Source: Methylomonas sp. (GTDB lineage: Bacteria > Pseudomonadota > Gammaproteobacteria > Methylococcales > Methylomonadaceae). Taken from it: a stretch of 64,000 nt of DNA. Under the pieces are notes generated by a model that was given only the letters and a program-made list of their open reading frames with translations, did not search any database and was not told the DNA's origin. The stretch spans positions 1-64,000 of the forward strand of contig JALSJK010000087.1 of NCBI GenBank assembly GCA_026989395.1. The letters run 5' to 3'. Below, in pieces: positions 9,271 through 38,320 of the stretch (positions are counted from its first letter, which is position 1; each line of letters begins with the position of its first letter). The translations under genes were made by a program, and so were the position numbers.

Positions 9271-9291
9271 ATCACTGAAAGTGAGGTGATC

Positions 9292-12200
9292 ATGCAAATT
9301 TATCTTTATCCAATTTATCGGTGGTCTTGTTTCGGATTAATGATTAGTTTGCTGACAGGATGTAGCGCGGTCAGTCAATCGAAAAATAGCCAACGTACGA
9401 TTTATGCCGAGGTTGTCGCTCTGGATCAACCGATTACCTACAACCGTTTTGGTTCATTTAATCCCTATGGAATGATCTACGCCCTTAAGCGGGATGTGAT
9501 TGACACAGAAACCTGTGATGGATCAGGAAAAAATTGTAAGCCGATGAATGAACAGACCAAGCCTGGTCATGTCCGGTTACGAGATGGCAAGCGGCCCAGG
9601 CCGCTTGTTTTGCGTGTTAATGAGGGCGATCGATTGCAAGTCAAATTCTATAACATGTTACTGCCTCATCAGCCAGATATCAGTAGTCAGGAAACTAAAG
9701 CTCGTTTACCGAATCAGCATCTTGATTCGATCAAATCACTTGGGCTTAACTATCGCAATTTAGGAACAGAAAGCGAACCGCTCACGCTTCCAGCAGAAGC
9801 AGCTACAATTCATACCAAAATAACTGGACCAGCAGGGAATCCTGCACTTGCAGGTAAAGGGGCAAGCAAACAATACTGCGGTTGGTATCCGCAAACAGGC
9901 AAAAATAAACCTGATTCCGAATCTGAAACGAACTGGCCAAGAAGCCGTTGTTCATCCATTACCATTTCAGGCGTTGCAGCCTCTAATGTTAACAATTCTG
10001 AACAATCAAATTTACAAAATGGTTTGATCCCAATTCCGCCTGGCGAATCAATCGTTTATCAATGGCAGTTTGACATCCCCGCTGATCAAGAGCATGTCCG
10101 CCGCAGGCAAACCTATTTGTTTTTTAGCCACGGTGCGCCAGCCGGCGGTGAAGGAGATGGTGGAAGTTTGGTGCATGGACTGTTTGGCGCAGTGAATGTA
10201 GAGCCAGCGGGTAGCCGCTGGTATCGCAGCCAAGTGACTGCTGATATTTGGAAACAAATCTGGCAGCAAAACAGCAATGGGCATGGCAGGCTGAATTATG
10301 AAACCACACTCAAAAATGGTTTTCCGGCGCTAAATTTGCTCAAGCCACTCGATAATAATCGTTTTGAACTGATATACGGAGACTTGAATGCAATAATAAT
10401 GGAAGATAGGTTTAGTTTCAGCAATACTGAAACCAACCCGGATCAAACTCCTGCATTTCGTGAATTTACAGTTATTTTTCATGATGAATTGAAAACCTTC
10501 TATGCTGACGAGTTTACTGAGCTCGGGTCAGAATTTTCACTGGCTGGTGTTGCCGATGGTTTTGCCATTAATTATGGCGCCAGCGGAATGGGCTCTCTTC
10601 TGCTGGCTAATCGGAAAGGTATTGGGCCATCTAAGAATTGTGTTGAATGTGCCTACGAGGAGTTTTTTCTGGAGTCCTGGGTCAATGGCGATCCAGCATT
10701 GTTAGCGGATTATGCTGATGATCCTTCGAATGTACATCATTCTTATCTCAATGACCGGGTGGTTTTTCGCAATCTCCATGCCGGTCCAAAGGAAACGCAC
10801 GTGTTTCATCTCCATGCTCATCAATGGCTGGCAGAAGACAAGGAAACCGGCACTTATTTGGATTCTCAAACCATTGCTCCACAACAGGGATTTAGCTACC
10901 AGATTTATTATGGAGGTAGCGGTAACCGCAATGAAACACCCGGTGACTCGATTTTTCATTGCCATTTATATCCCCATTTTGCGCAGGGAATGTGGGAATT
11001 ATGGCGGGTACATGATGTACTAGAAGATGGAACGCGCCGTTTGCCTGATGGAGAATTTGTTGGCGTTGATGGCAAAAGTGGCACAAATCCTGATACCGGC
11101 GAAATTCCACCATTAGCTGCCAATCCACAGCAATTATCCGGAACCCCGATTCCAGCCGTTATTCCGCTTCCAGAGCAGGCAATGCCTCCCGAGCCAACGT
11201 ATTTGGAAGATGGAGTTCCTGCGAAACTGGATGGTTTTCCAGGCTATCCATTTTATATTGCAGGTGAATCTGGACATCGTTCACCACAAGCACCTCTAGA
11301 TATTCACGAATCAGCCGGACTGGGTCGCCATGTGGTGCAATGTCCTAAAGATAAGCAAGGAAATTCAGTTTGTCGCAGAACCGTTTCGGGAATTGCCTCA
11401 CATCAGCTATCATCGTTGAGTGGCAAGGAAGTTGTTAAACATGCGCTACAAACTGCGGATTTTTCAGTTGAACTCGAAGATGTCCAAATCAAATTGCTAC
11501 CACCAGTAGGAACAGAGTTGGAACGCATTGCGATGAATTTTCACAGTCAGGGCGAAATCAACAGTAAGACGCCGCAGGGCGATAGTGCTAAATTGAGTGT
11601 AAATGATTCTGACCCTAAGCCAGGCGCTCCTTATGCCGATCCATGTCGTGGCTGGACATTCGATGAGGATACTTTTGGTGATCGTACCCGACGTTATCAT
11701 GTGTCAGCGATACAGACTGACATGGTTGTCAATCATGTTGGCTGGCATGATCCGCAGGCGCGGATCAATGTTCTTGATGATGATGTTGATGAATTTGAAA
11801 ACCAACGCACCAAGCATGCTGTTCCGTTTTTCTTCCGGGCTCATTCGGGTGATTGTATTGAGTTTTACCATACAAATCGTACTCACAAGGAATTAGAAGT
11901 TGATGACTTTCAAGTCAAAACACCGACTGACACTATTGGTCAGCATATTCATTTGGTAAAATTTGATGTCACCGCGTCAGATGGCTCTGGAAATGGTTTT
12001 AACTATGAAGATGGCACTTTTTCACAAGGCGCTATTATCGAACGTATTCATGCTGCCGAAGGTAAGGTTGTAAATACCAAGGGTGAGTCGGTACAACTTG
12101 AGGAGCCAGCACCAGATCAATTCCAGACAACGATTCAACGCTGGTATGCTGATCCATTACTGGCACGAAATAAGGAATGCAAAAAATTAGCCGTACAGGG

Positions 12201-14742
12201 CAAACCGGGCTGGAAATCTGATCCTGATTGCTTTGATCGAACCATGCGTACGGTTTTCACTCATGATCATTTTGCGCCATCTTCTATCCAACAACACGGA
12301 TTTTATTCAGCACTTCTGGTGGAACCAAAAAATGCGAAGTTGCAATATCCTGATGGCACAGATATGGATGCAGAAAATGACAAGACAAATTGTAAACCAG
12401 GCGAGCAAGTTGACGGTGTTTTTAAGTCTTGTGCAGTTGGAACACAGGCAATGGTTATTATCAACGATGATGGAACTCAGCGTGAAGCGGGTCAAAGCTA
12501 TCGCGAATTTGCGTTGGCAATCGCAGACTTTGCATTGTTATATGACGGTAATACCAGGATAACCAGCAAGGGATTGAAAGATTATGACAAGCTGTCGATG
12601 GACAAGCAAAAAGTGTTTGCCAAGCTGCATGATAATCTGAAGGACTGGCAGTCAAAAAATGGGCGTCCGATTGATCCTCCGAAGTTGCCAGAAGCCATTT
12701 CTAAAGATCATCATAATCCCTATTTGGTTAACTATAAACACGAACCCATTCCACTAAGGATTGGTTGCAAGGATTATAAAGATAATCCTTCCAATTGCGT
12801 GTCTGATAGTATCAAGCAGCAACAGCATGGAGATAAAGGTGACATGGCTTACGCCTTCAGCTCCATCAAACATGGCGATCCGGCAACTGAAATATTTGCT
12901 GGCTATGAAGGAGAAAAAGTTCAGTTACGAGTGATTCAAGGTGCTCAGGAAGTTCAACACATGCTCAATATTCATGGGCAACGTTGGCCGCGTGAAATCG
13001 GCAATCCTGAATCACCATTGGTAGCTGCTCAGGAAATCGGTATTTCAGAGCATTTTGAGATGAAGTTGGGGCTGGATAATGTCTTTCGAGGCGAGCCTTT
13101 TGCTGATTCTTTGTATAACTTTGGTTCGGTTGATGACTTGTGGAATGGTGCCTGGGGATTGATTCGCAATTTTGGCGACTATCGTCAATGTGATGATTAT
13201 CAAAATCAGGCTGATAAACGAAAATGCGAAACAGGACTTGCCAGTCTTGATTGGTGTAAAAACGTGTCATTACTACAGGATTGTCTGAAGCCATTACCTA
13301 ATGTCAAACGCAGCAAGAGTGGTGAAATCGTTGTCAAAAACAAAAATGATTTTATGCTGGATGGCGAGATTATGTGCCCCAAAAATCTGAATGGCAGTCA
13401 TTTTGTTACTTTCTTCATTGATACGGTTGATGTGAGTGAATGGTTGGGAGATGAGATTTATTACGATAAGCAACTTTATGACCCGGATTCGCTCGCATTT
13501 ATTTTACTTGACAGGAAAATCACTGATACGTTTGAATCACCACGCAAACTTCTGCAGGCTGATCCAGTGAATCAGGGGAAAAATCTTGAGCAAATTATTA
13601 CCGCTTACAAGGAGAAAATAAAATCCGATATCAAAGCTAAGGGGGTAATTGAACCATTGGTGATCAGAGCCAATGCTGGTGATTGTATCCAGGTTGTGCT
13701 TTACAATCATTTGCCTGAAAACATGGGTGACAAAGTTGGCGATGCACTGATGCCTAAAATTGTACCTTTGAATGTTGAACCAGACAGTGAACAAGCATCT
13801 GCTGATGTGACGCCATCATCAATTGCATCATTGCATCCTCAATTGCTTGCACACAATGTTGCTAATCAGGATGGTGCGGCTGTTGGTTTTAATCATGAGC
13901 TGCAGCTGGTTGCCCCAACAGATAAACAAGGTAAGGTTTATTATTGGTATGCCGGTACGCTGGATATAGAAAATAACAAATTGGTTGCCAAACCGCGTGA
14001 ACTCGGAGCAATCAACTTGGTGTCTTTCGGCGATGTTATCAACCATCCGGTTCATGGCTTATTCGGCGCCTTGATAATCGAGCCAAAAAATGCAAGTTAC
14101 CATGATCCAGTATCGGGCAAGCAATTGGATAAGGGAAGCGGTGTGCGCGCTGAAATTCATTACCTGGAGTGGGGCAAAAACAAGACATTCAAAGAGTTTG
14201 TGGTTTTTTACCGGGATGGACTCAATTTACATTATCAGGCTGAAAATGGGCAATCTATTCCTGTGCCGGATTGTACGGTGTGTGATGATTCCTACGATTT
14301 GGGAGAAAAAGGAATTAATTATAGTAGCGCTCCGTTCTGGTTGCGTCTGGATCAAGCTCCACAAATGAACAAGGATGATGAAGGCAACAAACACTGGTTC
14401 CTTCCTGATTTAAATGCAGCCTATTTTCCTAGCAACTTTTTTACCGAAATCGATAAACTTGTTCCAACACCTAAATTTTCCGCTAATGAGGGTGATGAAG
14501 TTCGCTTCCGGGTATTGCAACCTTCTGGACGAGCAAGGCAACGTACCTTTTTGGTCTACGGTCACGATTATCAAGATTTGCTACCCTATTTTGGATCGCC
14601 TCACGCTCCTTTGATTTCGGTTGGCAAGGCAATTACAGCCAGAATAGATTCAGCTAAACCGGGGCACTGGTTATACCGAGATGGACCAGCACAAATCTGG
14701 TCTGGGGGTGCTTGGGGAGTTTTCGATGTGTCGAAACGCTAA
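9292..14742 (+). CDS. Giant multicopper oxidase lipoprotein (MnxG-like)
   Basis: Multi-cupredoxin oxidase of 1816 residues, against about 500 for ordinary laccase-type enzymes. It is closest in size and style to the giant Mn(II)-oxidising MnxG-type oxidases. ATG 9292 follows GAGG at 9283-9286. The signal peptide ends LLTGC (Cys about 24), so the protein is lipid-anchored outside the inner membrane. Copper ligands are visible in series: SHG (H280) and VHG (H295); HVFHLHAHQW (503-512); FHCHLYPHFAQGM (555-567), which supplies the type 1 Cys557, His562 and Met567 and type 2/3 His556 and His558; HIHLVKFD (885-892); THDHF (990-994); HGF (1002); HPVHG (1585-1589). It overlaps the next gene by 17 bases. 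The substrate (Mn, Cu, Fe or organic) cannot be read. Confidence 0.85.
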   Translation: MQIYLYPIYRWSCFGLMISLLTGCSAVSQSKNSQRTIYAEVVALDQPITYNRFGSFNPYGMIYALKRDVIDTETCDGSGKNCKPMNEQTKPGHVRLRDGKRPRPLVLRVNEGDRLQVKFYNMLLPHQPDISSQETKARLPNQHLDSIKSLGLNYRNLGTESEPLTLPAEAATIHTKITGPAGNPALAGKGASKQYCGWYPQTGKNKPDSESETNWPRSRCSSITISGVAASNVNNSEQSNLQNGLIPIPPGESIVYQWQFDIPADQEHVRRRQTYLFFSHGAPAGGEGDGGSLVHGLFGAVNVEPAGSRWYRSQVTADIWKQIWQQNSNGHGRLNYETTLKNGFPALNLLKPLDNNRFELIYGDLNAIIMEDRFSFSNTETNPDQTPAFREFTVIFHDELKTFYADEFTELGSEFSLAGVADGFAINYGASGMGSLLLANRKGIGPSKNCVECAYEEFFLESWVNGDPALLADYADDPSNVHHSYLNDRVVFRNLHAGPKETHVFHLHAHQWLAEDKETGTYLDSQTIAPQQGFSYQIYYGGSGNRNETPGDSIFHCHLYPHFAQGMWELWRVHDVLEDGTRRLPDGEFVGVDGKSGTNPDTGEIPPLAANPQQLSGTPIPAVIPLPEQAMPPEPTYLEDGVPAKLDGFPGYPFYIAGESGHRSPQAPLDIHESAGLGRHVVQCPKDKQGNSVCRRTVSGIASHQLSSLSGKEVVKHALQTADFSVELEDVQIKLLPPVGTELERIAMNFHSQGEINSKTPQGDSAKLSVNDSDPKPGAPYADPCRGWTFDEDTFGDRTRRYHVSAIQTDMVVNHVGWHDPQARINVLDDDVDEFENQRTKHAVPFFFRAHSGDCIEFYHTNRTHKELEVDDFQVKTPTDTIGQHIHLVKFDVTASDGSGNGFNYEDGTFSQGAIIERIHAAEGKVVNTKGESVQLEEPAPDQFQTTIQRWYADPLLARNKECKKLAVQGKPGWKSDPDCFDRTMRTVFTHDHFAPSSIQQHGFYSALLVEPKNAKLQYPDGTDMDAENDKTNCKPGEQVDGVFKSCAVGTQAMVIINDDGTQREAGQSYREFALAIADFALLYDGNTRITSKGLKDYDKLSMDKQKVFAKLHDNLKDWQSKNGRPIDPPKLPEAISKDHHNPYLVNYKHEPIPLRIGCKDYKDNPSNCVSDSIKQQQHGDKGDMAYAFSSIKHGDPATEIFAGYEGEKVQLRVIQGAQEVQHMLNIHGQRWPREIGNPESPLVAAQEIGISEHFEMKLGLDNVFRGEPFADSLYNFGSVDDLWNGAWGLIRNFGDYRQCDDYQNQADKRKCETGLASLDWCKNVSLLQDCLKPLPNVKRSKSGEIVVKNKNDFMLDGEIMCPKNLNGSHFVTFFIDTVDVSEWLGDEIYYDKQLYDPDSLAFILLDRKITDTFESPRKLLQADPVNQGKNLEQIITAYKEKIKSDIKAKGVIEPLVIRANAGDCIQVVLYNHLPENMGDKVGDALMPKIVPLNVEPDSEQASADVTPSSIASLHPQLLAHNVANQDGAAVGFNHELQLVAPTDKQGKVYYWYAGTLDIENNKLVAKPRELGAINLVSFGDVINHPVHGLFGALIIEPKNASYHDPVSGKQLDKGSGVRAEIHYLEWGKNKTFKEFVVFYRDGLNLHYQAENGQSIPVPDCTVCDDSYDLGEKGINYSSAPFWLRLDQAPQMNKDDEGNKHWFLPDLNAAYFPSNFFTEIDKLVPTPKFSANEGDEVRFRVLQPSGRARQRTFLVYGHDYQDLLPYFGSPHAPLISVGKAITARIDSAKPGHWLYRDGPAQIWSGGAWGVFDVSKR

Positions 14743-33062: not shown

Positions 33063-35033
33063 ATGCCTAAATATACTCGTAAGCAGTCGCCATTGTGCTA
33101 TGGATTGCTTTTGTTGTTTTTTTTATCTGAAAAAGTAATTTCCGAAGTGGATTTTGTTGATGTTGCCGATTTGTCTCTAGAGGAGCTGATGATGCAAGAA
33201 TTAATTGTGACATCCGCTGCAAAAAAGCCTCAAAAATTAAGTGAAGCCGCATCAGCAATCTATGTGCTTACTCAGGATGATATTCATCGCTCAGGTGCAA
33301 CCAGTCTTCCAGATTTGTTGCGTTTGGTTCCAGGTGCACACGTAGCCAGAATTACTGCTCATAAATGGGCTGTTTCTATTCGCGGATTTAATAGTCAATA
33401 TGCCGCAAAATTACTGGTTCTTATCGATGGACGAAGTATTTATTCACATTTAAATGCCGGTGTTGTGTGGGATATTCACAATCCAATGCTGGAAGATATT
33501 GACCGAATTGAAGTCATTCGGGGGCCAGGGGCTTCAATTTGGGGTGAAAATGCGATGAATGGAGTCATAAATATAATCACCAAAAGACCAGGTGAAACTC
33601 AAGGAAATTTATTGGTGGCGGGAGGCGGTAATACAGAAAAAGTCGTTGCGGGTTTTCGTCATGGCGGAAAGGTCAGTGATAAAGGCTATTATCGGGTTTA
33701 TGGGCGATATTTTGATCGTGATGATGGTGCTTCATTTCAGGGCGCGCCGACTGATGACCGGGCAGATGGTTTTCAGGTAGGTGCCAGAACGGATATTAAT
33801 CTTTCAGAGCATGATTTGTTTGTTTTGCAAGGTGATTATTATCAAGGCAATGAGAAAGAAACGTTATCAATTATCACTTCGCCGGCAAAAGCGATTGATA
33901 CCAGGGCTTATCAGTACAATATTCTAGGGGGTTGGCAGCATAAAACAGAGCCAAACAATCTGATGACGCTTCAGTTTTTTTATAATCGGGAACGATGGAA
34001 CAATAATATCAATAATTCAGCATTGGTTAATTATCATATTGATACCTTTGATGTAGATTTCCAGTATCGTTTCCAGTTTTTTGACAGGGATGATTTAACT
34101 TGGGGGCTTGGGTATCGATTGATTGCAGATGATTATGGTAAGAGTGCTGTCACACAATATGAGCCAAGCCAACGGGACATTCAGCTTTTCAGTGCTTTTT
34201 TTCAGGATGAAATATCCTTGGTCACTGACTTCTGGCGTTTAATTATTGGTGCTAAATTTGAACATAATGATTACAGTGGGTTTGAAATTCAACCTTCAAT
34301 TCGGTCTATCTGGAATTGGCGTGATCATACCTTTTGGGTGGCTTTTTCTAGGGCGTTAAGAACCCCTTCGCGGACAGAAAGAGACAGTACCTTCCGTTTT
34401 TTTGATCCGGGAACTTCGCAAGCTGTTGAGCTAAGGAGTACTAGAGAATTAAAAACCGAGCAGATGTTATCTTATGAAGGAGGGTATCGTTGGCAAGTCA
34501 ATTCACAATTAAATATAGATGTTTCTGGTTATTATCATGACTATAAAAGGCTCATCGGTTTCGATTTGATCAAGGTCAGTGCTACTTCAGTAACTCTTGA
34601 GACCGCTTATCGCGGCAAAGCGACTATTTGGGGCTTTGAAATAGCAATTGATTGGCAGCCCATGGATATTCTAACGATCCGCTCACATTACAGTTTTCTA
34701 GATGACCAGAGTAAAGGAAAAATGATGAGTGGAGGTAATCAACAAACTGTTCCCCATCATCAATTTCTTATTTCAACGGGGATAGATATAACTTCTCAGG
34801 TTCAAGTTAATTTAACTGGGCGTTTTGTTGATAGGATTGCTGACCAACAAATTGCTGCCTATTATGGTTTTGACGTACATTTGATTTGGCAGCCGGTACA
34901 AAATTTGGAGTTGTCATTTGTAGGCCAGAATTTATTGGATTCTGAACATGCCGAATTTTATGAAAAAACCATCGAAACCCAGCCCACTGAAGTTAAGCGC
35001 AGCATTTATGGCAAGCTTAGCTGGCGTTTTTGA
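33063..35033 (+). CDS. TonB-dependent outer-membrane receptor
   Basis: Ligand-gated outer-membrane transporter of 656 residues. A signal peptide (CYGLLLLFFLSEKVISEV) is followed by a possible TonB-box region (ELIVTSAAKKPQKL). The plug domain contains TQDDIHRSGATSLPDLLRLVPG, VSIRGFNSQYAAKLLVLIDG and IEVIRGPGASIWGENAMNGVINIITKRP. The barrel follows and ends in RSIYGKLSWRF with the terminal aromatic. The plug style and the YfiR-like gene overlapping the 3' end by four bases match TonB/YfiR pairs seen in many gammaproteobacteria. The ligand is not visible, and no siderophore or vitamin B12 genes lie nearby. Confidence 0.92.
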   Translation: MPKYTRKQSPLCYGLLLLFFLSEKVISEVDFVDVADLSLEELMMQELIVTSAAKKPQKLSEAASAIYVLTQDDIHRSGATSLPDLLRLVPGAHVARITAHKWAVSIRGFNSQYAAKLLVLIDGRSIYSHLNAGVVWDIHNPMLEDIDRIEVIRGPGASIWGENAMNGVINIITKRPGETQGNLLVAGGGNTEKVVAGFRHGGKVSDKGYYRVYGRYFDRDDGASFQGAPTDDRADGFQVGARTDINLSEHDLFVLQGDYYQGNEKETLSIITSPAKAIDTRAYQYNILGGWQHKTEPNNLMTLQFFYNRERWNNNINNSALVNYHIDTFDVDFQYRFQFFDRDDLTWGLGYRLIADDYGKSAVTQYEPSQRDIQLFSAFFQDEISLVTDFWRLIIGAKFEHNDYSGFEIQPSIRSIWNWRDHTFWVAFSRALRTPSRTERDSTFRFFDPGTSQAVELRSTRELKTEQMLSYEGGYRWQVNSQLNIDVSGYYHDYKRLIGFDLIKVSATSVTLETAYRGKATIWGFEIAIDWQPMDILTIRSHYSFLDDQSKGKMMSGGNQQTVPHHQFLISTGIDITSQVQVNLTGRFVDRIADQQIAAYYGFDVHLIWQPVQNLELSFVGQNLLDSEHAEFYEKTIETQPTEVKRSIYGKLSWRF

Positions 35034-35053
35034 TCGGCTTGATAAGCTTGGGA

Positions 35054-35596
35054 ATGATTAAAAATAGTTTGCCCTTTGCAAGGTTACTGGCGATGCTGAG
35101 TGTGCTGTTATTTGTGACTGCACTTAAGGCTGATGATCACGATTTTCGGATTGAAAAAATAACTGCCGGGTTTGTTTATAATTTTGCGCGTTTGGCTGTT
35201 TGGCGCGAATTGCCGGGCGATGAATCAATACATCTGTGTGTTCTGGCAAGTCCTGATTTTGTCAGCGTCTTTCGGAATTTTTCTGGTAAAAGGGCGGCTG
35301 GAAGAGTTATAGAAGTATTTGAATTTTCAAAGAAAATGGCGCGGCAATGTCATATTTTGTTTATCGACAAGATCAAAGGAGCTGCTGTCCAGTGCCAATC
35401 TTTAACCGATAATATGAATTTATTGACCATTTCCAATATTCCTGATTTTGCGCATAGCTGTGGGATTATCGGTTTATATGAAGATGATAATCAGCTGCGC
35501 TTTGAAATTAATATTGATGCTATTAATAAATCAAAAGTAAGGCTAAGTTCTTATTTATACAAGCTTGCTAGGATTATCAGGGAAAATCCCGGTTAA
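35054..35596 (+). CDS. YfiR-like periplasmic protein (DUF4154)
   Basis: Periplasmic protein of about 180 residues. A signal peptide (MIKNSLPFARLLAMLSVLLFVTALKA) fits ATG 35054, but TTG 35030, which overlaps the receptor stop, is also possible. The mature part has KITAGFVYNFARLAVW, ARQCHILFID and NMNLLTISNIPDFAHSCGIIGLY, matching the YfiR family. Family members restrain a diguanylate cyclase (YfiN) in the periplasm. No YfiN-like GGDEF gene follows; the next gene is a convergent glycosyltransferase. Two cysteines (CVLA and CHIL) and HSCG remain for possible redox control. Confidence 0.85.
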   Translation: MIKNSLPFARLLAMLSVLLFVTALKADDHDFRIEKITAGFVYNFARLAVWRELPGDESIHLCVLASPDFVSVFRNFSGKRAAGRVIEVFEFSKKMARQCHILFIDKIKGAAVQCQSLTDNMNLLTISNIPDFAHSCGIIGLYEDDNQLRFEINIDAINKSKVRLSSYLYKLARIIRENPG

Positions 35597-35658: not shown

Positions 35659-36348
35659 TCATGTGCGCTTCTTATCTTTGGAATAAAGGCCGCTAAGACT
35701 TTTTGGGTCACATCCTGAAAAATACAGCAATCGTAGCCACCACATCAACATAATGGTTCGTAAGATGCCAAAGCTTTGCCAACGTCGGCTAGAAGTAATT
35801 ACCCTGGCTTTCAGGCAAAGCGGAGCAGAGTATTTTTTCAGTTGTTTGCAAATGGCAATATCCTCCATCAATGGAATGTCGGGAAATTGTCCAATTTGAT
35901 AAAAAAGTTTTTTTTGCACAAACAAGGTTTGATCGCCGGTGCTGATGCCTGTCAGTCTGGAGCGCCAGTTCATAAAAAAAGCAATAACCTGAAACATAAA
36001 ATGATTGCCGGATAATTCAACATCAAATCTTCCCCATTGATATTTTTCTGACAGGCCTTTTTCTATTAAAAGGAGCGAGTTATCAGGTAAGCTGGTGTCA
36101 GCATGGAGAAATAGTAAAATTTCTCCAGAAGCAATTTTAGCGCCTGCATTCATTTGTTTTGCGCGCCCTTTGGTGCTTTGGGTTATTTTGTCGGCTAGTG
36201 GCTGGCTAAGATCAGTGGTGTCGTCTTGGCTGCCGCCATCAACAATAATTATTTCTGCTTGTGTTCTTAAAGACTGAAGTTTTGATAAAAAACTTGAAAT
36301 ATTTTGTGCTTCATTCAGGACCGGGATGATAATGGAAAATTTAACCAA
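35659..36348 (-). CDS. Family 2 glycosyltransferase (TIGR04283 type)
   Basis: Glycosyltransferase of 229 residues with GT-A fold: SIIIPVLNEAQNISSFL (start), IIIVDGGSQDDT, GRAKQMNAGAKIASGEILLFLHADT with the DXD-like HAD, and GISTGDQTLFVQKKLFYQIGQF with PLMEDI. These match the TIGR04283 family, some members of which sit in arsenosugar or cell-envelope loci. A short hydrophobic stretch (IMLMWWLRLLYFSG) near the C-terminus suggests membrane association. It overlaps the Wzz-like fusion gene by eight bases, so it may add a sugar in the same exopolysaccharide path. Acceptor unknown. Confidence 0.87.
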   Translation of the reverse strand: MVKFSIIIPVLNEAQNISSFLSKLQSLRTQAEIIIVDGGSQDDTTDLSQPLADKITQSTKGRAKQMNAGAKIASGEILLFLHADTSLPDNSLLLIEKGLSEKYQWGRFDVELSGNHFMFQVIAFFMNWRSRLTGISTGDQTLFVQKKLFYQIGQFPDIPLMEDIAICKQLKKYSAPLCLKARVITSSRRWQSFGILRTIMLMWWLRLLYFSGCDPKSLSGLYSKDKKRT

Positions 36349-38320
36349 CGTTTTTTAATGCCGGGTGTAATAAATCAATTTCTGATAGGGCTTGGCTTGA
36401 TCCTGGTTGCGTATAAATACGATAGCGAGAGAGCGTTACGGGGTTGATGTGTCCAAGGATTTGTTCCAGGTCTTGTAGTCTCAGTCCTTGTTGAAGTAAA
36501 AAAATAATATAACTATGTCTGATGGCTTCGGCAGTGAATTCTTCAGAGTCTGAAATGCCCGCGTCGTTGGCCATACAAGCTAATAAGGCAGCAAGTTCTT
36601 TTGCGGTCGCTTTGGGAGTGCTTTTCCAAAGGGGGCAGGGCGAAGAATGTTCAAAAAGCGAATGAATAACGGCTGGAACAGTAATTACTCGTGGCGTAGC
36701 GCCAGTAATAGCCAGTTGATGATTTGGGAAGTCAAAATCATCTAATTCAATGAGAGTGGCTTCGTCTAGGGTTAATCCGGTGAGGAGTAAAGCAAGTAAC
36801 TGCCTGCCTTTCAAGCTAGAGGTTTGATAAACCATTCTTAATTGTTCGGTCGAAAATTGTTTTTCTAAAGGCGCGTCCAAAGCATGATGGTTTTGTGCGG
36901 TTAAATTTCTATATTGTGGTTGTTGGGGGATGGCATCTTGGGCTGGAGGGGTATGGATATGAATTCCAGGTACCGTAAAAGCTTCGGGGGTTTTCGGTTT
37001 TCGAGTCAAAAATTCAGCCAGCAAAACACTAAGTAAGGCGAGTAGAAATGAGCCGCCAGTGGCGATTATTGCATCGCGCGTGTAGTCAGGGCTGCTTGGC
37101 TTTTGCGGACGGTAGGCGCGGTCAATGACATCTATTTGAGGGTAGTGGGCAGCTTGTTTGGCATCCAGTTTAACCAGTTTTTCCTGGGTTTCCCGGTACA
37201 TTTCTTCGAGTCCTTCAAGGTCAGACTTTAACGACTCATGTTGTTGAAAACGACCGCTGAATTCGCCGGCATCCTGGCTTAGCTCATCAATTTGATTTTG
37301 AATTGATTGAACAGACTGTCTTGCCGCTCGATAGGCCTGCTGTGCTTGCGATAGTGCTACCAATTGTCCCTGATTGCGCAGCTTTTGTAATCTGGATTCA
37401 AGTTTTTTCAGTTCCAGAGGCATAAAGCGTTTTGATGGATCAAGATTAATATAGTCATCCGTGAATTGTTGCCGCATTTCAGCAATTTTTTCTCGCAATT
37501 CCTGGGCGTGGGTCTCAAGGGCGCTGATGGTTCGTTGATCTTGCTCAGGGGCCACGCTTTGGCCATGTTTTATAGCAATTTTTAATGCATCAAGTCGGGC
37601 TTTTGCTTTGACTTCTTCTTCGCTGGCAAGATTAAGAGACTCATTCAATCCATTAATCCTTGCCAAAACTGGATTTTCAACTCGTTCAGTGGAGGTAATG
37701 CCGCTTGAAAGCATAAACTGATTTAGTTCGGCTCGCTTTGCTTCAATTTTTTCTCTCAAGCTGTCAAGTTCATCTTTGATAATCAGTTGTGTTGAATTAG
37801 TAGATGCTTCGGATTTTACAGAGCTTTCCTGTAGATAAACATCAATCCAGGTGTTGATCAGCAAAGGCAGAATATCAGGGTTTGGGCCTTCAGCTATCAT
37901 TTTCACCAGATTGGTGTCTGTAACTGGTTTTACATTAAGGGTGTTTCTGATTTCCAGGCTGGACAGCGATATATTTTCTGTTTTCAGTAGTTTTTGGGCG
38001 GTTTTAGCTAATAATGATGGTCCAAGTAACAATTCCTTTTGAATAGCGACATGTTCAATGTCGGCCCCTAGTTGCAGCATTTCCGGATTGGCAAATTGAT
38101 CAATTGCAGTTTTTGCGACAGTCAATAAGGTTGCGCTGCTTTGAAATACAGCCGGACGAGTGTAATTGTATGCCTGGCTGATTAATAGACTTAGCAGGAA
38201 AACTGTGCTGAAAATAATGAAGCGACGCGACCGATACCATGGCGGTTGCCAGTTAGAGGAGGTATAAAAGTTTTCTTGTCTGGATATATGTTCTATTTGC
38301 GGAGGTGGGAATTTTTCCAT
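36341..38320 (-). CDS. Wzz/GumC-like chain-length protein fused to a tyrosine-recombinase-like domain
   Basis: Unusual fusion of 659 residues. The first 435 residues are a Wzz/polysaccharide co-polymerase: membrane helix about 33-50, periplasmic coiled region (about 60-400: ELDSLREKIEAKRAELNQFM, LKKLESRLQKLRNQ), PSSPDYTRDAII, and a second membrane helix about 417-438. A cytosolic tail follows (about 439-659). Instead of a Wzc-type kinase, it carries a tyrosine-recombinase fold: LLALLLTGLTLDEATLIELDD (box I, Arg replaced by Thr517), AEAIRHSYIIFLLQQGL (Arg601 kept, HxxR His replaced by Glu598), ILGHINPVTLSRYRIY (His624 and Tyr633 kept). Recombinase activity is doubtful. It could bind DNA or another partner at the membrane. 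Confidence 0.85.
   Translation of the reverse strand: MEKFPPPQIEHISRQENFYTSSNWQPPWYRSRRFIIFSTVFLLSLLISQAYNYTRPAVFQSSATLLTVAKTAIDQFANPEMLQLGADIEHVAIQKELLLGPSLLAKTAQKLLKTENISLSSLEIRNTLNVKPVTDTNLVKMIAEGPNPDILPLLINTWIDVYLQESSVKSEASTNSTQLIIKDELDSLREKIEAKRAELNQFMLSSGITSTERVENPVLARINGLNESLNLASEEEVKAKARLDALKIAIKHGQSVAPEQDQRTISALETHAQELREKIAEMRQQFTDDYINLDPSKRFMPLELKKLESRLQKLRNQGQLVALSQAQQAYRAARQSVQSIQNQIDELSQDAGEFSGRFQQHESLKSDLEGLEEMYRETQEKLVKLDAKQAAHYPQIDVIDRAYRPQKPSSPDYTRDAIIATGGSFLLALLSVLLAEFLTRKPKTPEAFTVPGIHIHTPPAQDAIPQQPQYRNLTAQNHHALDAPLEKQFSTEQLRMVYQTSSLKGRQLLALLLTGLTLDEATLIELDDFDFPNHQLAITGATPRVITVPAVIHSLFEHSSPCPLWKSTPKATAKELAALLACMANDAGISDSEEFTAEAIRHSYIIFLLQQGLRLQDLEQILGHINPVTLSRYRIYTQPGSSQALSEIDLLHPALKNVG

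Follow-up and report, generated by a model that had tools for sequence, protein, structure and literature searches.

A putative polysaccharide co-polymerase with a degenerate tyrosine-recombinase domain as its predicted cytoplasmic tail in methane- and ammonia-oxidising bacteria

A gene in a 64,000-nucleotide stretch of a Methylomonas draft genome (referred to below as the window, meaning the whole stretch of DNA that was analysed) raises the question of what a polysaccharide co-polymerase (PCP) would do with a tyrosine-recombinase-like domain at the place where a related protein, Wzc, carries its kinase. Proteins of the Wzz/Wzc type determine how long the surface polysaccharides of bacteria become and make rings in the membrane, as has been established for Wzz and Wzc, and the well-studied form of cytoplasmic control in these proteins is the tyrosine kinase of Wzc. 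The gene occupies positions 36341..38320 on the minus strand and is one intact open reading frame of 659 amino acids, with the ATG at 38320 and the stop codon at 36341-36343. The reading frame and its homologs indicate a Wzz/Wzc-like PCP joined to a degenerate tyrosine-recombinase catalytic domain.

The co-polymerase part and its genomic setting

When the full-length protein was modelled with AlphaFold2 from 52 family members, residues 24–440 displayed the topology of a PCP, with two predicted transmembrane (TM) helices at about residues 32–54 and 413–439 (38159..38227 and 37004..37084, both on the minus strand) flanking a long helical periplasmic domain (residues 55–412; 37085..38158, minus strand). 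The first TM helix falls within a Pfam Wzz match to residues 32–111, and the second, recognised from Pfam and the model, is preceded by a proline-rich, GNVR-like segment. The periplasmic domain is modelled with a long coiled-coil, and the longest helices of the model span residues 150–206 and 295–392. The top fold matches of the full-length model were cryo-EM structures of Wzc, followed by KpsE and WzzE, and residues 24–440 matched PCP structures with Z-scores of about 14.

The NCBIfam families TIGR01005, EpsF and pepcterm_ChnLen matched the PCP part with E-values of about 1e-12, below their curated cut-offs (45–47 bits for EpsF and related families, compared to cut-offs of 279–423). The Pfam matches were also below threshold, with 16.7 bits for Wzz (cut-off 25.5) and 13.6 bits for GNVR (cut-off 27.7). 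No Wzz, GNVR or PCP family in Pfam or NCBIfam matched the window protein above its curated cut-off; judged by these scores, the PCP part appears to be related to the named PCP subfamilies, the exopolysaccharide transport family included, yet a member of none of them. EpsF and the chain-length determinants of XrtA systems, which are PCPs without a fused kinase and were among the best NCBIfam matches, differ from the window protein in that they carry no recombinase tail, and the window protein scores far below the cut-offs that define them.

Wzc, a PCP-2a protein with a BY-kinase, shares with the window protein the two TM helices, the long helical periplasmic domain and a cytoplasmic C-terminal regulatory domain. 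However, this last domain is a P-loop tyrosine kinase with a tyrosine cluster in Wzc, whereas in the window protein it is predicted to be a dead recombinase fold that occupies the place of the kinase. No kinase match was found over the tail in Pfam, NCBIfam or the fold search, and the P-loop tyrosine kinase domain is absent.

Also unlike Wzc, the fusion gene sits outside any polysaccharide operon. No shared polysaccharide cluster was found in 79 loci examined with flanks of up to 10 kb, and inspection by eye revealed no obvious one near four divergent members of the family. The neighbours varied by lineage and were mostly housekeeping-like, the most common being a glycosyltransferase of the TIGR04283 family, present in 11 of the 79 loci. 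Such a gene, recognised by its family match and in the neighbour survey, lies directly downstream in the window (35659..36348, minus strand); it overlaps the end of the fusion gene by 8 bases and is probably co-translated with it. The fusion gene is an orphan, located away from polysaccharide clusters. Because of this location, it is from homology that we infer a role of the PCP part in polysaccharide chain length or export.

Contig C99 of the same genome carries what looks like a full exopolysaccharide export cluster, distinct from the fusion gene and equipped with a PCP of its own and a kinase-like protein; these assignments were made partly by eye. Elsewhere in the window, positions 33063-35596 encode a TonB-dependent receptor of the TOL_0244 kind and, after it, a YfiR-like periplasmic protein; together the two may connect a periplasmic signal to cyclic-di-GMP control. 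An 1818-residue open reading frame at 9286-14742 has histidine-rich stretches that, by eye, resemble multicopper oxidase motifs.

Fold, active site and charge of the tail

The second TM helix is followed by a cytoplasmic linker (residues 440–485; 36866..37003, minus strand), which is predicted to be disordered, with pLDDT values below 50 at residues 441–481, and is the fastest-evolving part of the protein. Just after the TM helix, the linker carries a G-[IV]-H-x-[YH] motif (residues 452–456; 36953..36967, minus strand) that stood out by conservation in the family alignment, with G452 in 67, I/V453 in 65, H454 in 47 and Y/H456 in 75 of 84 rows. Some tail-less homologs (see below) retain sequence resembling G-[IV]-H-x-Y, so the motif may have an independent function.

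A sequence-only reading of the locus had proposed that a recombinase C-terminal fold takes the place of the kinase, and this was borne out by three kinds of evidence. Searched on its own, the tail matched Pfam Phage_integrase with an E-value of 6.7e-6, slightly below the 27.1-bit cut-off. A profile made from 66 tails found solved structures of Xer and integron recombinases, the best at an E-value of 3.5e-11. An AlphaFold2 model of residues 486–659 (36344..36865, minus strand) had a mean pLDDT of 88.5, and all VIA-align rows listed for it were of the tyrosine-recombinase/type IB topoisomerase fold, the best match being the archaeal Xer structure 4a8e (Z = 17.2, rmsd 3.2 over 160 residues). A mismatch of fold, which had been named as grounds for rejecting the proposal, was not what the model showed. 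Profile and model together identify residues 486–659 as a predicted tyrosine-recombinase catalytic domain.

The tail consists of this domain of about 170 residues and starts there, after the second TM helix and the disordered linker (441–481). The N-terminal core-binding (SAM-like) domain, which clamps DNA in tyrosine recombinases, is absent from both the tail model and the full-length model. Compared to XerC, XerD and XerA, the tail shares the catalytic-domain fold and the H/Y-P sequence at the C-terminal end, but it lacks the core-binding domain and the box I arginine, is acidic, and is fused to a membrane protein.

The same reading had considered the tail to be probably inactive on the grounds of five residues, all of which were found in the translation as given. 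The box I arginine is replaced by Thr517 (36770..36772, minus strand) and the histidine of the HxxR box by Glu598, and Arg601 remains at the other end of that box (Glu598 to Arg601; 36518..36529, minus strand), as do His624 at the former His/Trp position and Tyr633 at the position of the former nucleophile (36422..36451, minus strand). An alignment of 83 rows, from which these positions were assigned, extended the loss to the whole family. The box I position is occupied by Thr or Ser in 73 rows and by Arg in none, and not one of the 83 has the HxxR histidine. Arg601 is kept in 73 rows and Tyr633 in 70, position 624 is a histidine in 11, and Arg544 is found in all 83 rows with letters at that position. 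In 63 of 84 rows, lysine is missing from the hairpin that bears the catalytic lysine. Of the five catalytic residues checked, three at most survive in any one member, and four more divergent members likewise lack the box I arginine. The alignment thus indicates that the catalytic site has been lost throughout the family, beyond the window protein.

Other parts of the domain have been retained. The former HxxR helix (residues 597–618) is the best conserved among the stretches compared, with a mean of 0.72 compared to 0.66 for the second TM helix, and has family-specific residues at Y604, Y607, Q611 and G612. Over its full length, the C-terminal arm shows no more than average conservation (0.53), but P638 and P653 within it are near-invariant. 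Residue 652 is H or Y in 81 rows and P653 is present in 81 rows. According to the alignment, this H/Y-P motif (residues 652–653; 36362..36367, minus strand) matches the HPR end of XerC and XerD; of 30 intact Xer-type recombinases, 29 have an HPR-type end at the same place.

These 30 intact Xer-type domains, drawn from the genome of the window and from related genomes and cut to a length like that of the tail, also served as the comparison set for charge. In terms of net charge, which differs from surface charge, all 82 tails were negative (median −6.5, range −16 to −1, pI about 5.0), whereas all 30 intact domains were positive (median +9, range +3 to +13, pI about 10), with zero overlap between the two ranges. 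Taken on its sequence, the tail appears unlikely to bind DNA.

Distribution, selection and loss of the tail

The fused form was present in more than 80 further genomes from Methylococcales, Nitrosomonadaceae and Sedimenticola-like bacteria. In addition to the latter, carriers included Methylobacter, Methylotuvimicrobium buryatense 5G, Methylothermaceae and Methyloprofundus, as well as many isolates of Nitrosomonas, Nitrosospira and Nitrosovibrio. At a loose threshold, 42 of the 61 related genomes gave a match to the window protein, and about 22 of these matches were nearly full-length. Within the order, 77 of 201 genomes matched at an E-value of 1e-30, some of them with tail-less forms; a search of 100 genomes from a second family found a match in 41. 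In named genomes, 80 loci matched, one of which ended before the tail at the end of its contig. A phylum-wide draw of 398 genomes yielded no match beyond the Gammaproteobacteria (in the GTDB sense), returning the window genome and two others of the same class.

A locus in an Acidobacteriota metagenome-assembled genome (L109) is little different from one of the Sedimenticola loci and may represent contamination or transfer. Two genomes have a second, divergent fused paralogue (L121 and L122; also L038 and L039) with 33–34% identity to the window protein. In two draft genomes (L040 and G572:C101), two overlapping frames take the place of the single open reading frame, through either sequencing error or real decay.

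We considered the possibility that the fusion was an artefact of frameshift, misassembly or chance resemblance. The draft assembly of the window genome is fragmented into 182 contigs, and a frameshift joining two separate genes had been named at the outset as a possible refutation. However, about 100 homologs elsewhere carry the fusion in a single open reading frame, among them Methylotuvimicrobium buryatense 5G, isolates of Nitrosomonas and Nitrosospira, and single-contig genomes, and the sequence profile (E = 3.5e-11) agrees with the fold. An artefact is practically excluded.

Trees made separately from the PCP part and the tail had 51 of 83 splits in common, compared to 0.18 in shuffles, from which it follows that the two parts have travelled together; a single fusion event is probable. 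In the PCP tree, a quick tree with SH-aLRT support only and no outgroup rooting, the ammonia oxidisers (Nitrosomonas and Nitrosospira, loci L052–L079 and others) are found in two places among the methanotrophs, which suggests that the family reached them by two horizontal transfers.

The ratio of nonsynonymous to synonymous change (dN/dS) was determined by the Nei–Gojobori method between moderately close relatives, taken in pairs. Across 37 pairs, the tail had a median of 0.145 and the PCP part one of 0.089; for the linker, the median was 0.215 across 31 pairs. Between the window gene and its nearest relative, the tail had a dN/dS of 0.04. The tail is under purifying selection.

In one genus, g11, the fused form was found in 10 genomes and a form that stops after the linker in 15. 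Five of the tail-less sequences were included in the tree, where they form a group inside the fused ones, beside a fused member and with a support of 94, which points to one secondary loss of the tail in this genus. Since the genus keeps the PCP without it, the tail is not needed for everything that the PCP does. Many of the tail-less loci (L147–L158) have the same TAG stop, giving the appearance of a clean loss. By eye, no in-frame remnants of the tail were seen downstream of the stop; what follows are unrelated reading frames, which in two loci include what looks like a cupin-type gene.

Possible roles of the tail

The explanation that we prefer, with confidence that stands about midway, is that the protein is an orphan inner-membrane PCP in which the dead Xer-type catalytic domain serves as a cytoplasmic oligomerisation or docking module, as a substitute for the kinase. 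The PCP part would assemble as a membrane ring and would govern either the chain length of a surface polysaccharide or its export, the enzymes for making that polysaccharide being encoded at other places in the genome, and the tail, on its flexible linker, would act as a protein–protein module that no longer cuts and probably no longer binds DNA. The tails might themselves form a ring in which the C-terminal arm is passed to the neighbouring subunit, as it is between recombinase catalytic domains on DNA, or the conserved former HxxR helix might dock a cytoplasmic partner. The catalytic domains of XerH, Cre and lambda Int assemble cyclically, with the C-terminal helix inserted in the neighbouring subunit (PMC5241119), and the phage repressor MrpR is a precedent for a recombinase fold that has lost recombination and gained a new role (PMC10516654). 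A fold that was retained because of the protein contacts it makes, and that has left DNA behind, would be the simplest reading that uses all of the evidence. Against it stand the C-terminal arm, which may pack on its own domain in the model, the genus that keeps its PCP without a tail, and the R544/R601 pocket, since a phosphate- or ligand-binding site there would fit the conservation equally well. There is a real chance that the tail is an unusual reuse of the recombinase assembly; in its specific form, that the cyclic, arm-exchanging assembly has been reused off DNA as a cytoplasmic ring or gate of the PCP, replacing control by a tyrosine kinase, we put the idea forward tentatively.

Of the alternatives, the one that fares best, though we consider it unlikely, is that the former active-site pocket (Arg544, Arg601 and often His602) is a sensor that binds a nucleotide, sugar nucleotide or phosphoprotein and signals to the PCP ring. 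The invariance of Arg544 (83 of 83 rows) and the retention of Arg601 (73 of 83), on a helix better conserved than the other stretches compared, would be explained by such a sensor. However, Arg601 and Tyr633 are substituted in some members, and we know of no ligand-binding motif for the tyrosine-recombinase fold, which counts against it as well.

The sequence-only reading had proposed a membrane-anchored, probably inactive DNA-binding fold or DNA tether. The fusion, the predicted recombinase fold and the dead site stood, and it is the DNA binding that the acidic tails and the absent core-binding domain argue against. A tail that bound a site uncut could, as a membrane-bound transcription regulator, couple the export of polysaccharide to gene expression or to the position of the chromosome, and loss of catalysis alone would not disfavour this, because MrpR binds DNA in spite of having no recombination activity (PMC10516654). 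MrpR/YopR and SroF, phage repressors in which a recombinase fold has likewise taken on a new role, appeared among the fold matches of the tail, and Arg601 and Arg544 are retained. However, these are DNA-binding repressors, whereas the tail is membrane-anchored and acidic (82 of 82 tails, compared to 30 of 30 intact recombinases that are basic) and lacks the core-binding domain that MrpR has kept (PMC10516654). Most rows (63 of 84) lack the hairpin lysine, and all lack the box I arginine. The reversal of charge, combined with the loss of the core-binding domain and of phosphate-contacting residues, makes the tether the weaker reading, and we regard it as rather improbable.

A mimic of XerD, in which the tail binds XerC/XerD or the gamma domain of FtsK and places polysaccharide export at the septum, is very unlikely: the tail matches the XerD–FtsK gamma structure 5dcf by profile and fold and retains the H/Y-P end of XerC and XerD, but 5dcf scores no higher than unrelated recombinases, and many relatives lack the gene, yet PF00589 recombinases were present in 21 of 21 genomes searched. 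That the tail is a functionless remnant of an accidental fusion, as the 15 genomes of one genus with a tail-less PCP could be taken to mean, is hardly credible and largely refuted by the selection test (dN/dS of 0.145 over 37 pairs), and the tail has an ordered fold and has been retained since before the family spread between methanotrophs and ammonia oxidisers.

We found no published description of a Wzz–recombinase fusion in the open-access literature searched, and the architecture appears to be undescribed there. A whole lineage has put a dead-recombinase module where the tyrosine kinase of Wzc sits, giving a PCP with a new cytoplasmic module and a possible case of a recombinase fold leaving DNA entirely. 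The genus without the tail constitutes a natural experiment, and cultured hosts exist, e.g., Methylotuvimicrobium buryatense. The fusion may bear on the formation of biofilms and capsules by methane and ammonia oxidisers, organisms that are relevant to greenhouse-gas cycles.
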